Shown here one piece after another: positions 494-23,083 of a DNA stretch of 33,713 bases. Position 1 is the stretch's first letter. Each line of letters begins with the position of its first letter. The position numbers and the translations under genes were made by a program. The notes under the pieces were generated by a model. It saw only the letters and a program-made list of their open reading frames with translations, ran no database searches and was not told the DNA's origin. Location of the stretch: positions 1 to 33,713 of the IMG/VR virus record IMGVR_UViG_3300010354_000306; one strand, 5' to 3'. The stretch comes from a virus.

Positions 494-953
494 CGCACAT
501 TCTACGACTTAGTTCAAATGATTGTTTCCACTTCTCAGGAACATCCTGCTTCGGCATCACGATACGCTTGATCCCTACTTGGATCATCCCCTTCGTGCAT
601 TCTGAGCAGCAAGGCAATCCATGGACGTACATCGTAGCACCGTTGAGAGAGACTCCAACGAGACTAGCGTTGTAAATCGCATTCATCTCGGCGTGCACGA
701 TGTACCGGTACTTCAGCTCACGGTTGGCTAACCGCTCAGGATTATCAGAGATCCCACGAGGAAATCCATTGTAACCCTGAGACAGTACCTGGCCGTGGTC
801 GCCTACCGCGACCGCGCCAACTTTAGTGGACGGATCCTTTGACCAGGATCCGACCTGTTGGGCTAGGCGGATGTACCGTTTGTCCCATTTGATCTGCTGT
901 TCACTCGGTATACTCACTTGGTTCGATATACTCGCGCAGTGTACGGTGCTCAC
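390..953 (-). CDS. cd: dCMP deaminase
   Basis: 187 aa, close to T4 Cd (193 aa). Deoxycytidylate deaminase converts dCMP to dUMP, feeding dTMP synthesis. The zinc-site signature is complete: HAE at residues 87-89 (His ligand and catalytic Glu) and a Cys pair in PCCSEC at 114-119, followed by the usual MIQVGIKRIV strand. The SKDPSTKVGAVAV stretch at about 38-50 is the family's conserved N-terminal part. The start used is GTG at 951-953, which overlaps the stop of the upstream gene; no clear Shine-Dalgarno sequence is seen, and an internal GTG at codon 13 is an alternative. The last ~100 bases double as the start of the UDG-like gene. In T4-type phages this enzyme works beside the dCMP hydroxymethylase, also present here. 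Confidence 0.92.
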   Translation of the reverse strand: MSTVHCASISNQVSIPSEQQIKWDKRYIRLAQQVGSWSKDPSTKVGAVAVGDHGQVLSQGYNGFPRGISDNPERLANRELKYRYIVHAEMNAIYNASLVGVSLNGATMYVHGLPCCSECTKGMIQVGIKRIVMPKQDVPEKWKQSFELSRRMCDEAHVEIDFTYPDSGTESVAPDWEPIKSFPQKAQ

Positions 954-1267
954 TTAGTGTACGATGTACCGTCGCTGAGCGACATTAACCCAAAGGTGAG
1001 GTTGAGTTTCAACCACGGCCCATTTTGATCTTCGCCTTCGACGAGTTCCGCTGTAAATCCTCCAGTGCACGAGTATCCGTTACGAGCTGCCTGCTTCAAG
1101 CGCTCACGCGCGGCTTGACGGATCTCGTAGATCTCGGGTACTCTTGCCTGTCCATCCATATTACCCCATTCCCAGTTAGAATGTGTCATCCATGCATGAA
1201 CCTCCTCAAAGTCGAAAGTATCCATGATCTCGTCGATCTGCTCCTGAATTGCTTCTTGGCGTGTCAT
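950..1267 (-). CDS. Conserved phage protein of unknown function
   Basis: 105 aa from the ATG at 1265-1267 (MTRQEAIQEQIDE). An upstream in-frame start at 1345 exists but would overlap the HNH gene, whose stop is at 1272; starting at 1267 leaves a 4-base gap, so I prefer it. The protein has a charged helical N-terminal half and a C-terminal half with NGYSCTGGF and a strand-like WLKLNLTFGLMS run near the end. No catalytic motif is recognised. Its stop overlaps the GTG start of the dCMP deaminase gene, suggesting they are co-translated. Soluble; function unknown. Confidence 0.7.
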   Translation of the reverse strand: MTRQEAIQEQIDEIMDTFDFEEVHAWMTHSNWEWGNMDGQARVPEIYEIRQAARERLKQAARNGYSCTGGFTAELVEGEDQNGPWLKLNLTFGLMSLSDGTSYTK

Positions 1268-1271
1268 TTGA

Positions 1272-1814
1272 TTAAGTTCTGTCTTCGTTATTATTACAGG
1301 CTGCCTTACCAGGGCCGTGTCGATCCAATTTGGATGGAGATACATGTTTTCTGCAAAAGATACAGTAGCATTCTATTTTCTTTGGAGATTCGCGTCCCTT
1401 CAGTGAATCTGAAATTTTTTTCTTGCATCGTTCCGATTGCTTTCTACCGCGATTAGCGTCTGAGATTTTTTGTCTAGTTAATGCTGACGGTGGTCCCAAT
1501 TTCATCCCAGTCGTCGGGCTTCTTCTGCCTTTTAGTTTTTCACTTATCTTGTTGTAATCGGTATTGGCCACTCTCTTCGCAATATGCTCAGGTGATTGTT
1601 TGTATCCGTCCAATGATCTTGCACCAAGCCAATGCTTCTTAAGACTGTTGTATGCCTGAGCATCTTCATAGTGCCCATATTGCTCATATAATGCCAGATG
1701 CGCTTTAGCGTGCTCTTCAGGAGTCAGATAGACAATATTGCTATCGTCGTCCGTCCCTCCCTGATGCTTAGGAATTACGTGGTGTCGGTGGAATCCTTTT
1801 TTCTTAGGTAACAT
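1272..1814 (-). CDS. Free-standing HNH homing endonuclease with NUMOD3 repeats
   Basis: 180 aa. The N-terminus carries the HNH core: HRHHVIPKHQGG at about 9-20, then N26 and a LTPEEHAKAH helix at about 30-39. The middle has three NUMOD3-like DNA-binding repeats of the form KIS(D/E)..KGR (about 89, 116 and 133), followed by a Cys/His cluster near the C-terminus (CYC, FC, RH, C) that could hold zinc. This is the layout of phage homing endonucleases that cut a cognate site in related genomes and spread by repair. The gene sits between the dCMP hydroxymethylase gene and a small conserved gene and looks richer in A+T than its neighbours, consistent with recent arrival. The start codon (1812-1814) is buried in a hairpin and lies just downstream of a late-promoter box. 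No intron is visible. Confidence 0.88.
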   Translation of the reverse strand: MLPKKKGFHRHHVIPKHQGGTDDDSNIVYLTPEEHAKAHLALYEQYGHYEDAQAYNSLKKHWLGARSLDGYKQSPEHIAKRVANTDYNKISEKLKGRRSPTTGMKLGPPSALTRQKISDANRGRKQSERCKKKISDSLKGRESPKKIECYCIFCRKHVSPSKLDRHGPGKAACNNNEDRT

Positions 1815-1850
1815 AGTTTAGAAATGAAGATAACCTTCTTTCCAAACTAT
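1813..1850 (-). promoter_or_regulatory. RNA hairpin burying the HNH start codon
   Basis: On the minus strand, arm ATAGTTTGGAAAGAAG (1850-1835), loop GTTAT, then arm CTTCATTTCTAAACTAT (1829-1813). Pairing is complete apart from one G-U wobble and one bulged A. The 3' arm takes in the first two bases of the ATG, and the only purine-rich Shine-Dalgarno-like run (AAGAAGG) is in the 5' arm and loop. Transcripts reading through from the hydroxymethylase gene would carry the whole hairpin and should translate the endonuclease poorly. Confidence 0.7.
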
Positions 1851-1855
1851 TTATC
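1848..1855 (-). promoter_or_regulatory. Late promoter box GATAAATA (HNH gene)
   Basis: Minus strand GATAAATA, matching the NATAAATA late-promoter core of T4-type phages, 33 bases before the HNH start codon and just after the hydroxymethylase stop. Using T4 late-promoter geometry the transcript would start near 1842, inside the 5' arm of the hairpin, so the late mRNA would lack its basal half. Confidence 0.6.
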
Positions 1856-1858
1856 CGA

Positions 1859-2548
1859 TTACTCGCGATAATTGGGATCAATGAGAGAAAAATGTCTAGA
1901 ATACACGTGGAGTGAACCGACCTGCCAGGTCAGAGTACCCATGCCATAGCGGCAGTCGCCCTTCATGTTGAGGTCGTCAAGCAAACGGTTCATCACCTCG
2001 TGCTGCCAGGCACGGTCATTCTTATAGCCAAAGACGACGTCATTGGAACGCATCTGAACGACGGCATGCAGGTTGTCATTGCGGATCATGTACTGCACAG
2101 CATTGGTACACATGAAGTCCGACATGTCGTCTCGGTTGTACTCCGAGTGCATGGACGGTCGGGTGTAGATCATGACAGCACGGCGGCTGTTAGGATTGGC
2201 CAACAGCTCGAGCATCACGGACCAGTACTGCTTGTGGTTTTTGGAGGAATAGATCGCCCAGCCATAGTTGGAATTGATCTCTCCGTTCTTGGAGGCGACC
2301 ATCTGCCAGATCTTCGGGGCACCTCCGCGGATGTCAGCGACCTTCAAAGACTGGGAATCATACCACTCGATCTCGCGGCGAACGTAGTCCCAATTAACCT
2401 CACCGAAGATAGCATCTTCATCTGCCAAGAAGGAGGCGCCGACCAATTCGATGGTCTTGACGCCTGTCTTGTCGTTTACGAAGTTACCAGCAGCGAGGGC
2501 AGACTTGAAGTGCTCTCGGATGTCTTTGACTTTAAGAATTGGAAGCAT
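1859..2548 (-). CDS. 42: dCMP hydroxymethylase (thymidylate synthase family)
   Basis: 229 aa, near T4 gp42 (246 aa). A thymidylate-synthase-fold enzyme. The catalytic Cys is C147 in DFMCTNAVQY. The nucleotide-choice position, Asn in thymidylate synthases (GLPFN), is Asp here: RSNDVVFGYKND places D178 there. In T4 gp42 the matching residues are C148 and D179, and this Asp selects cytosine, so the product is 5-hydroxymethyl-dCMP rather than dTMP. SNYG at 93-96 and SRRAVMIYTRPS at 121-132 are the phosphate-binding region. The start codon overlaps the upstream Nmad1-like gene by 17 bases. Together with dCMP deaminase it implies control of the cytosine pool and probably hydroxymethylcytosine in the phage DNA. 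A plain thymidylate synthase is less likely because of D178. Confidence 0.85.
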   Translation of the reverse strand: MLPILKVKDIREHFKSALAAGNFVNDKTGVKTIELVGASFLADEDAIFGEVNWDYVRREIEWYDSQSLKVADIRGGAPKIWQMVASKNGEINSNYGWAIYSSKNHKQYWSVMLELLANPNSRRAVMIYTRPSMHSEYNRDDMSDFMCTNAVQYMIRNDNLHAVVQMRSNDVVFGYKNDRAWQHEVMNRLLDDLNMKGDCRYGMGTLTWQVGSLHVYSRHFSLIDPNYRE

Positions 2549-11563: not shown

Positions 11564-12235
11564 TCATTTGCCGAACGTCGAAGTTTTCTCAAGAGCGATC
11601 CAGTACTCGACAGGAGTGCTGGTGTTCTTGAAGTGGCTGATCAGCTTTGAACTGACCGACACCACGTAATCACCGGCCATCATTTTCAGATTGCCAATGA
11701 CCATGATAAACGAGAAGACCTCATTACAAGCATTCTTCTCGTCGATCACAATAGTGTATTTATTGGCCGTCGGGTTCTTCAGGTCGACAATTTGCAATGT
11801 AATTTTGCCCTTTGAACCGAGGATCTGAAGAGTGGGGTGACCGAGCACTGAAGCGGCTCGCTTGATCTTGGAGATCATGTCTGAGGAAAGATTGAACACC
11901 ACGTCGGCATTCGGCATATTGACCGTCTTGTTGGGGACCGTCAAGACATCCGGGCTCGAGTAATAGTACTGGATAGAAGCATTGCCATCGCGTACCATGA
12001 CAGAACTGTCGGTGAACTCTAATTCAGGATTCTCCAGAAGAGAGATCGTAGAAAGGAACTGCGTCAGGTCAAAGATGCCAAACTCCGCAGGGATTTGCTC
12101 GGAGATCTTAGCAGATGCCACGATATTCTTGGCTTCAGCGATCGTGCTGATGGTGCTGCCTGGCCTGAAGAGCATGTTCGGATTGATAGCCGAAAAGTTC
12201 TTGAGGATGTCGACGGTATTGTCAGAGAGTTTCAT
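11564..12235 (-). CDS. 45: Sliding clamp, DNA polymerase accessory protein (gp45)
   Basis: 223 aa (T4 gp45 228). The MKLSDNTVDILKNFSAINPNMLF start and the PEDV-like FDLTQFLSTISLLENPELEF segment match T4-type clamps. As a trimer it encircles DNA, holds gp43 and, with gp55 and gp33 in T4, activates late transcription. Its role as late-promoter co-activator fits the NATAAATA boxes elsewhere in the window. The ATG overlaps the stop of the upstream gene by 4 bases (ATGA). No unusual insertion or truncation is visible. Confidence 0.93.
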   Translation of the reverse strand: MKLSDNTVDILKNFSAINPNMLFRPGSTISTIAEAKNIVASAKISEQIPAEFGIFDLTQFLSTISLLENPELEFTDSSVMVRDGNASIQYYYSSPDVLTVPNKTVNMPNADVVFNLSSDMISKIKRAASVLGHPTLQILGSKGKITLQIVDLKNPTANKYTIVIDEKNACNEVFSFIMVIGNLKMMAGDYVVSVSSKLISHFKNTSTPVEYWIALEKTSTFGK

Positions 12236-18428: not shown

Positions 18429-19493
18429 TCAGACTACCTCTAAGTTTTGGGCTTCGAGATGTAGTTCGCGAAGCTTGGTCTTGATGGTATCCTTATTTAG
18501 CGATGTCTCAACCGCATCCACGTACGAGTCGATCAGGTGTGACGTATCTGAGATGGGACCAACCGATTCGTCTTGGACGTTCGATCCAGTGAACTCTTCG
18601 TAGTTCTCTGCGATCTTCAGCTCAAGCGGATTCTGCTTTTGGAGCATATCGATGAAGCGGTCGAACTTGAAAAAGTCGGCTTTGTTGAGGACTACAACCT
18701 TGGCAAATTTTCCTGTGCAGCTAGGAACATCGTAGTTATCAGGATCCCTAGTCTTGTCATCGTATATGTATTTGTGAAACAGTACGTGCGGATTGTGAAT
18801 CTGAGTCAACTCGCGAGTATCCGTATCAAATACGTGGAAATACTTATGGTCATTTACGTCCGCCCACGTCATCTCAAACTGTGTGCCGAGGTAGTGGATG
18901 TTGCCCTTCTTCGACTTCGTGTGATAGTGACCTGACCAAACTTCCTCGAATCGTGCAAAGACGTTTGGATCCATTCCCTCATGGGCCGGCATACCGGGAA
19001 GTACGTCGAACCCTTTCAGTTCAAGGTGACCTGCCAGGATAGGAGCATTGCAGGTCTCAACGAACTTCATTGACTCCTCATAGTTCTCCGGATTGATCCA
19101 AGGGAGAACTGCGATGTTGCATCCATCGTATGTCAACACCTTCGGTCGCATCACGATGTTGACATTCTCAACGAAGAATCCTAGCAGTTCCTTCAGCGAA
19201 CACAGGTCATTGGTGTTCTTGTAGACCACATCGTGGTTACCCGGAATGATGTCCATCGTCATCCCCAGATCACGCATAGGCTCTAGAAAGGTCTTGCGGT
19301 TGTGGTGAAGCGCCTTGAAGTTGATGTACTTCCGATGATCGTAGTAATCACCTAGGTGCAGGATCTGCTTGATCCCGTGCTCCTTGCAGTACGGGAAGAA
19401 GACATCACTGTAGAACTTCCCAAAGTAATCCAGGAAAGCATCGGAGGCATTTCTGGCTCCGCAATGAGTATCGTTGAGGATGGCTAACTTCAT
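18429..19493 (-). CDS. 47: Recombination nuclease subunit (gp47, Mre11/SbcD family)
   Basis: 354 aa (T4 gp47 339). Calcineurin-type metallophosphoesterase with all metal motifs: D8-T-H10 in LNDTH, GDYYDH at 48-53, GNHD at 85-88, GHLELK at 155-160 and GHYH at 188-191. It forms the Mre11-like nuclease with gp46. The start ATG overlaps the gp55 stop (ATGA), so 55-47-46 form one coupled unit that joins late-transcription sigma with recombination. Length and motifs are ordinary for the family. Confidence 0.96.
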   Translation of the reverse strand: MKLAILNDTHCGARNASDAFLDYFGKFYSDVFFPYCKEHGIKQILHLGDYYDHRKYINFKALHHNRKTFLEPMRDLGMTMDIIPGNHDVVYKNTNDLCSLKELLGFFVENVNIVMRPKVLTYDGCNIAVLPWINPENYEESMKFVETCNAPILAGHLELKGFDVLPGMPAHEGMDPNVFARFEEVWSGHYHTKSKKGNIHYLGTQFEMTWADVNDHKYFHVFDTDTRELTQIHNPHVLFHKYIYDDKTRDPDNYDVPSCTGKFAKVVVLNKADFFKFDRFIDMLQKQNPLELKIAENYEEFTGSNVQDESVGPISDTSHLIDSYVDAVETSLNKDTIKTKLRELHLEAQNLEVV

Positions 19494-20089
19494 GAGATGA
19501 AGAACTCAAGGTCGGTCTTGACCCGCTTCTTGAAGTCCTTGATCTTCTTGTCGTTCTCTTTTACCTTGTCGATGCGCTTCTTGATGGTCTCGATGAAGCC
19601 GGTATCTTGGAACATTGCTCCGATCTCGTCATCAGGAGATGACATGAAGTTCTCGATGCCGGCATGCTCAATGTAACGGAACTTGATGTCCTGCTGCTTC
19701 TTCTCCTTCATGATACGGCGAAGGAAGGCATAGTAGCAGATCTGCGTAAAATACGCAAAGGCATTAGGCGAACCAGTTCGAGTGGCAGCCTCGATGTTGT
19801 AGTTCATGATGGCCTTGATGCAGTTCTCGACGGCATCCATGACCATCTCCTCACGGTAGGTGTACCGCACGAAATTAGGCTTGTGAGAAAGACCCTCAGC
19901 AATCCGAAGGAAGCAGCGACCGATGTATTCGGGGATCTTGTCTGGCTCCTTACCAGCAGCGATAGACTTTTTGACAGACGTGACGTAGTCGACAACAGCC
20001 TGTGAAAATTCTTTGTTATTTACGTAGTGCTCGCGTTCCTCCTTCGGTTGCGAGGACTTCTTAGGTTTGGTTGATTTCGTGGTTGTCAT
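19490..20089 (-). CDS. 55: Late sigma factor (gp55)
   Basis: 199 aa (T4 gp55 185). A small divergent sigma-70-family protein that redirects host RNA polymerase to NATAAATA late promoters, working with the gp45 clamp. The YREEMVMDAVENCIKAIMNYN and NAFAYFTQICYYAFLRRIMKEKKQQ segments (about 80-131) are the sigma region 2-like core shared with T4-type gp55. The N-terminus is a Lys/Ser-rich basic tail. A TGTACA / TAGTAT promoter box lies just upstream, consistent with pre-late expression. Position next to 47 and 46 matches cyanophage-type genomes. Confidence 0.9.
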   Translation of the reverse strand: MTTTKSTKPKKSSQPKEEREHYVNNKEFSQAVVDYVTSVKKSIAAGKEPDKIPEYIGRCFLRIAEGLSHKPNFVRYTYREEMVMDAVENCIKAIMNYNIEAATRTGSPNAFAYFTQICYYAFLRRIMKEKKQQDIKFRYIEHAGIENFMSSPDDEIGAMFQDTGFIETIKKRIDKVKENDKKIKDFKKRVKTDLEFFIS

Positions 20090-22613: not shown

Positions 22614-23067
22614 AGTAGAAGTGTGAGTAAGAGAAGGAGGCGTCACCGACGATGTACTCGACATCGGTATTCTGAGAATGGAAATCGAGTTGGCCGATTG
22701 ATACCGGAAAGGCATCCACGAAGCGAACCTGGCGAATCACATTGTTGCTGCTGTTCAGGATGTTCAGCGTCATGTCAGCAAACTTCATATTCTCGGTGTT
22801 CGAATTTGACACCATCCAGTTGAACAGTGAGATGTAGTTCTCCATGTTCTCCGTGATCATGTACCGAATATCGAAGGGAGCATATTCTACCTTGTCGCCG
22901 GCATACGTGTTTTGCAAATTGCGATAGGGCTGCGAGATCGCTCCGGCACTGACGTTTGGCAAAGCTGAATTGATGCAGAAATACTCCACGTCTGCAAACT
23001 CTTGACGGTCGATGATCAGCCGAAATCCATTCGGCGACAGGAAATTCTTGTTCAGTGTGGTTGACAT
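22603..23067 (-). CDS. Tail-tube-fold virion protein (gp19-like; gp3 position)
   Basis: 154 aa. The pattern NGFRLIIDRQEFADVEYFCINSALPNVS, then YAGDKVEYAPFDIRYMITENMENYISLFNWM, then DMTLNILNSSNNVIRQVRFVDAFPVSIG and a last TDVEYIVGDASFSYSHF strand is typical of T4-type tube-fold proteins (gp19 and relatives). It sits between 23 and uvsY, where cyanophage-type genomes carry a gene often called 3 (tail completion), so a tail completion or tube-end role is likely. It starts 5 bases inside a predicted late transcript, with no ribosome-binding site visible. A terminator and a late promoter box lie directly upstream. Confidence 0.7.
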   Translation of the reverse strand: MSTTLNKNFLSPNGFRLIIDRQEFADVEYFCINSALPNVSAGAISQPYRNLQNTYAGDKVEYAPFDIRYMITENMENYISLFNWMVSNSNTENMKFADMTLNILNSSNNVIRQVRFVDAFPVSIGQLDFHSQNTDVEYIVGDASFSYSHFYFVT

Positions 23068-23075
23068 GGTTCAAT

Positions 23076-23083
23076 TATTTATC
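23076..23083 (-). promoter_or_regulatory. Late promoter box GATAAATA
   Basis: Minus strand GATAAATA between the gene 23 terminator and the next ATG (23065-23067), 8 bases from it. T4 geometry puts the transcript start about 3 bases before the ATG. The 15-base context is identical to the hsp20 box. Confidence 0.55.

Follow-up and report, generated by a model that had tools for sequence, protein, structure and literature searches.

How, and at what point of infection, is a free-standing homing endonuclease gene expressed when it sits directly 3' of gene 42 in a T4-like phage? The stretch of DNA analysed here (the window, 33,713 nucleotides, the whole of IMG/VR record IMGVR_UViG_3300010354_000306) raises this question. 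Its source is a T4-like phage, represented by 33.7 kb in which gene 42 and replication and structural genes are recognisable, with a gene 42 product 60-62% identical to gp42 of T4-like phages. It encodes both gp55 and gp45, the latter being in T4 a co-activator of late transcription (Table 1). The HNH ORF is intact, its HNH residues are invariant across relatives, and its AUG lies 44 nt downstream of the gene 42 stop codon (1861-1859).

Table 1. Features of the window bearing on expression of the HNH gene
Feature	Position	Strand	Basis or remark
gp55 late sigma factor	19490-20089	(-)	PHROG 234, E 4.9e-56
gp45 sliding clamp	11564..12235	(-)	PHROG 223, E 9e-71
gene 42, dCMP hydroxymethylase (thymidylate-synthase fold), upstream cistron of the HNH gene	1859..2548	(-)	Pfam PF00303, E 1.8e-16
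Inserted cassette, 624 bp: recoded gene 42 tail, leader and HNH gene	1278..1901	(-)	blastn against empty-site relative L010
Late promoter box GATAAATA, predicted +1 at 1842	1848..1855	(-)	gp55 geometry; TATAAATA before the same gene in L035, L036, L037 and L087
Hairpin 5' arm; part 1850-1843 predicted absent from late mRNA	1835..1850	(-)	RNA folding
Hairpin 3' arm, covers A and U of the start codon	1813..1829	(-)	RNA folding
Free-standing HNH homing endonuclease, 180 aa, HNH and NUMOD3	1272..1814	(-)	Pfam; PHROG 655
Gene after HNH (MTRQEA...)	950..1267	(-)	Overlaps the gene 42 stop codon in the empty-site relative

An earlier note on this DNA had placed a late promoter box in the spacer between the two genes, and GATAAATA is indeed found at exactly that position as a match to a gp55-type late promoter. 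The presence of a gp55 gene and an excess of the heptamer ATAAATA, which occurs 9 times in the window against 1.2 expected, all 9 on the coding (-) strand, both speak for this assignment. The box of gp55 promoters extends from -13 to -6, with adenines read at -12, -9 and -8 (PMC7892883); because this geometry, applied to 1855-1848, puts +1 at 1842, it predicts the very start near 1842 that had been proposed. After gene 23, a tail-tube-like gene also has GATAAATA, 8 nt ahead of its ATG (window 23067-23083), which predicts a late-mRNA leader of 3 nt.

Folding of the RNA from 1870 to 1790 reproduced both arms of the hairpin that the note had described, with a stability of -22.4 kcal/mol (z -4.6) that was equalled in 3 of 4000 shuffles, and none of 4000 shuffles was as stable as the 47-nt leader folded by itself. 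The start codon is covered in two of its three bases, since A1814 and U1813 form pairs with two bases of the promoter box, U1849 and A1850, and G1812 is free. The folds also bear out that a late start would remove the basal pairs hiding the AUG, although they number 8 rather than the 7 first counted: with transcription from 1842, 8 of the 16 pairs are lost and about 8 stay in the late mRNA. The unpaired probabilities of 1814 and 1813 accordingly rise from 0.02 and 0.08 in the long RNA to 0.77 and 0.76 in the RNA from 1842, and the energy needed to open the start region is computed to drop from 14.9 to 7.0 kcal/mol, the former exceeding the value of every other start among the 29 examined in the window. 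No Shine-Dalgarno sequence was found near the HNH AUG (best anti-SD duplex +1.0 kcal/mol), and regA, gene 44 and a 148 aa ORF of the window likewise have none. A Rho-independent terminator was ruled out from the sequence, the stem being A+U-rich and followed by no U run. An I-TevI-type autorepressor operator was also rejected, with no similarity between leader and empty site above that of shuffles (p 0.32-0.97), and an Rfam search of the window returned no match.

The history of the locus can be read from L010, a relative whose gene 42 protein is 91% identical to that of the window and which has no HNH gene, the TGA of its gene 42 overlapping the next ATG. The blastn alignment to L010 stops at 1902 and restarts at 1277, so that 624 bp replace 14 bp, and, since these limits enclose leader and ORF alike, the control region with box and hairpin is part of the inserted DNA. 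The empty site is present in both L010 and L011, where the insertion is missing beside a conserved gene 42, and cleavage of such an endonuclease-free allele is the predicted activity of the HNH enzyme. In the relative L036, the HNH ORF (L036:2001-2546) has SRHFNLIG at its end and so duplicates the gene 42 C-terminus; this copy marks the insertion point and is what would be expected for insertion there.

We therefore regard it as probable that the HNH gene is expressed only late, as a free-standing endonuclease that brought its own means of control along when it was inserted into gene 42 at the 3' end. Transcripts reading through from the gene 43-42 region in the early and middle periods would contain all 16 pairs of the hairpin; the late promoter box, transcribed as part of them, would be paired with the AUG, and few ribosomes would start on this long mRNA. 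Once gp55 took over, the promoter would be active from about 1842, the 8 basal pairs could not form, the AUG would be free and the endonuclease would be translated from the late mRNA.

Such an arrangement has precedents, as late-promoter and hairpin control has been described for I-TevI, I-TevII, I-TevIII, segB and Aeh1 mobE (PMC2988022), and gene e and others are under such control as well (PMC3014915). With the same script, the opening costs of the T4 genes fell from 15.4 to 5.2 kcal/mol for I-TevI, from 17.4 to 5.8 for segB and from 16.6 to 4.8 for e between long and late RNA. As in the window, the late box of I-TevI in the T4 td intron lies inside the 5' arm of a start hairpin, an arm missing from the late mRNA (PMC2988022). 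I-TevI, however, is an intron-encoded GIY-YIG enzyme whose hairpin hides a proper Shine-Dalgarno sequence, its box spacer measures 23 nt against 33 in the window, and its late mRNA loses the whole stem, whereas that of the window is predicted to lose only half. The T4 gene segB resembles the HNH gene of the window in encoding a free-standing endonuclease and in having a late box within the 5' arm of a start hairpin, which in segB lies over the ribosome-binding site and AUG; it differs in belonging to the GIY-YIG family, in lying in a tRNA cluster and in possessing a Shine-Dalgarno sequence. Aeh1 mobE of an Aeromonas phage, which we compared by description only, is likewise a free-standing HNH gene among nucleotide-metabolism genes with a late promoter and a sequestering hairpin (PMC2988022), although it splits nrdA and its hairpin, by that description, hides the ribosome-binding site. 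For T4 mobE and mobD, we found no box in the 70 nt upstream, and the review of these genes reports no such structure (PMC2988022).

The window thus has a homing endonuclease ORF, a gp55-type box just upstream in a phage encoding gp55, and a start hairpin that needs sequence upstream of +1. It does not have the sequestered Shine-Dalgarno sequence about 8 nt before the AUG, the AUG itself being paired instead, and that sequence characterises the known members, not the control logic as such. By its anatomy, the window would work like the known members without sharing all their parts, and its HNH gene is best read as a further case of the I-TevI, segB and Aeh1 mobE type of control, in a variant that hides the AUG. 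The earlier comparison with I-TevI agrees with this anatomy; the application of that logic to a free-standing gene, in turn, is not new, segB and Aeh1 mobE having been described already (PMC2988022).

The leader sequence itself was found elsewhere solely in a second contig, 99.65% identical to the window, and a pattern search of genome contigs gave 66 matches, none of them a relative. Comparison of the hairpin was made with the nearest IMG/VR relatives (L035, L036, L037 and L087), all four of which have TATAAATA upstream of the HNH gene and a structure covering its start, with stems that differ. The gene lies behind gene 42 in L035, L036 and L037 and, judged by eye from the translated end, behind a UDP-galactopyranose mutase gene in L087 (L087:1-2140), which suggests that the control module need not go with gene 42. 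In L035, L036 and L087, the 5' side of the hairpin starts in or just past the box and the 3' side reaches the start; in L037, the box is 6 nt before the AUG and a GGUUUC/GAAACC stem encloses both. Opening costs fell from long to late RNA in all four (L035, 12.9 to 1.7; L036, 11.3 to 5.7; L037, 7.5 to 0.7; L087, 14.0 to 7.5 kcal/mol). Few relatives can be aligned closely and also have the hairpin; the alignment of L035 with the window covers 36 nt with 8 differences, both sequences fold, and the stems differ by one exact compensatory change from A-U to U-A and by a one-base register shift. The proposed logic, closed on read-through and open on late mRNA, is hence supported by the folds of the window, those of I-TevI, segB and e, and the four diverged relatives, that is, by anatomy and comparison.

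These relatives also bear on two other explanations. If the late promoter worked and the hairpin had no regulatory role, expression would be late through transcription only, and the residual hairpin and the missing Shine-Dalgarno sequence would leave translation weak on either mRNA. Shuffling only the upstream part removed from the late mRNA gave p 0.053 in the window and weak values in L036 (0.159) and L087 (0.073), in both of which mean start accessibility hardly differs between long and late RNA. We nevertheless consider a non-regulatory hairpin quite unlikely, given a fold beyond chance and a start-covering pairing that relatives achieve with different stems. It is still far less probable that ATAAATA and the inverted repeat are relics, arisen by chance or left by decay, of a gene not properly expressed. 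GGAG precedes the AUG in L035, L036 and L087 and not in the window, which lacks some 12 nt, GGAG included, that stand between hairpin and AUG in L035, as decay might have it; against this, ORF and HNH residues are intact, the leader is kept in the 99.65% identical contig, and box and structure recur in relatives.

A different picture was obtained for cultured phages. In Karamvirus, Jiaodavirus and Biquartavirus, a homologous enzyme (53-61% identity) is encoded at the same place after gene 42, but there is no leader, box or hairpin and the HNH start overlaps the end of gene 42. In the Enterobacter, Citrobacter and Klebsiella relatives, this start and the gene 42 stop codon share bases as ATGA or GTGA, and the HNH gene of the Aeromonas relative also overlaps the gene 42 end; a late box and hairpin were sought in these cultured enterobacterial and Aeromonas relatives and were absent, there being no leader at all. 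A lack of conserved pairing in relatives with the endonuclease, which the earlier note had named as grounds for refutation, is thus observed in the cultured relatives, but there the HNH genes have no leader in which a stem could form. Their overlap with gene 42 suggests translational coupling, and an enzyme encoded at one and the same position appears to be controlled in two ways. Coupling might then operate in the window too, with ribosomes that end gene 42 loosening the base of the hairpin and some of them re-initiating, so that the hairpin would set the level and not the timing of expression. By our own estimate, a terminating ribosome would reach about 1849-1848 and touch the pairs that hold the AUG, yet across a spacer of 44 nt it would disturb only 2-3 of the 16 pairs from the stop codon. 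Coupling has, moreover, no need of a late box in the spacer, and this box recurs in relatives, among them L087, where the gene upstream is an unrelated one. We thus judge coupling unlikely in the window and retain late-only expression through promoter and hairpin.

A survey of more distant HNH relatives gave a broader view. ATAAATA lies no more than 110 nt upstream in 34 of 60 non-redundant relatives, against 4 of 352 control windows placed further upstream, and the spacing between box and AUG falls into groups of 4-8 nt, of 16-47 nt with or without a hairpin, and of 56-68 nt with a structured leader. When we asked whether the removed sequence hides the start, the combined p was 0.0009 for the 16-47-nt group, 0.002 for the 4-8-nt group and 0.57 for the long-leader group (56-68 nt), in which start-hiding is unsupported; all three values are descriptive, as the groups were formed after the data had been seen. 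The late box also lies within a stem covering the HNH start in the cultured cyanophages S-SKS1 (L168) and MA10 (L169). The annotated TTG start of the S-SKS1 gene is probably wrong, as an in-frame ATG 15 nt downstream fits the relatives better.

The 4-8-nt group comprises twelve loci, mostly with a spacing of exactly 5 nt, for which the predicted +1 falls on the A of the AUG; a leaderless late mRNA is thus a possible prediction for the 5-nt loci. ATAAATA stands exactly 5 nt before the HNH ATG in L039, L052, L057, L065, L092, L095, L097 and L098, and four other ORFs in these loci have the same spacing. A structured 5' leader of the HNH gene was observed in L100 (1926-2012), L072 (1928-2018) and 11 further loci, with a late box ahead of it in nearly all. 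Its hairpin has double changes in 9 of 11 consensus pairs and is followed by a second short stem, which in most loci carries AGGAG in its loop or 3' arm, and most of these genes carry CTATTTAT, complementary to the box ATAAATAG, in codons 2-5. Rfam gave no match for the leaders in 13 related loci, and nothing relevant for L100 at a relaxed threshold. No description of leaderless or structured-leader forms for this HNH family was found in the literature searched, which is weak evidence of novelty. In the viral contig L086, a permuted tmRNA adjoins an HNH gene (L086:2482-2760 (-), Rfam RF04321, 82 bits).

Whether HNH cassettes of this family in T4-like phages generally travel with a late-only module is, in our opinion, evenly balanced. 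If they do, the module would come in three builds. In the first, found in the window, L035, L036, L087, L103, L108 and the cyanophages S-SKS1 and MA10, a hairpin would be broken by the late start. The second would have a late box 5 nt before the AUG, with a leaderless late mRNA and a read-through mRNA without a usable start, and the third would be the 56-68-nt structured leader, which shows strong covariation and is not in Rfam.

Since the leader lies inside the insert of the window and a related cassette, laid out alike, stands behind a different gene, our results suggest that the selfish gene takes the control module along when it moves. A natural comparison is offered by the end of gene 42, one endonuclease being found there, depending on the phage, with a late promoter and hairpin or with an overlap of gene 42. 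The survey implies that late timing of such enzymes is common rather than a curiosity of T4.
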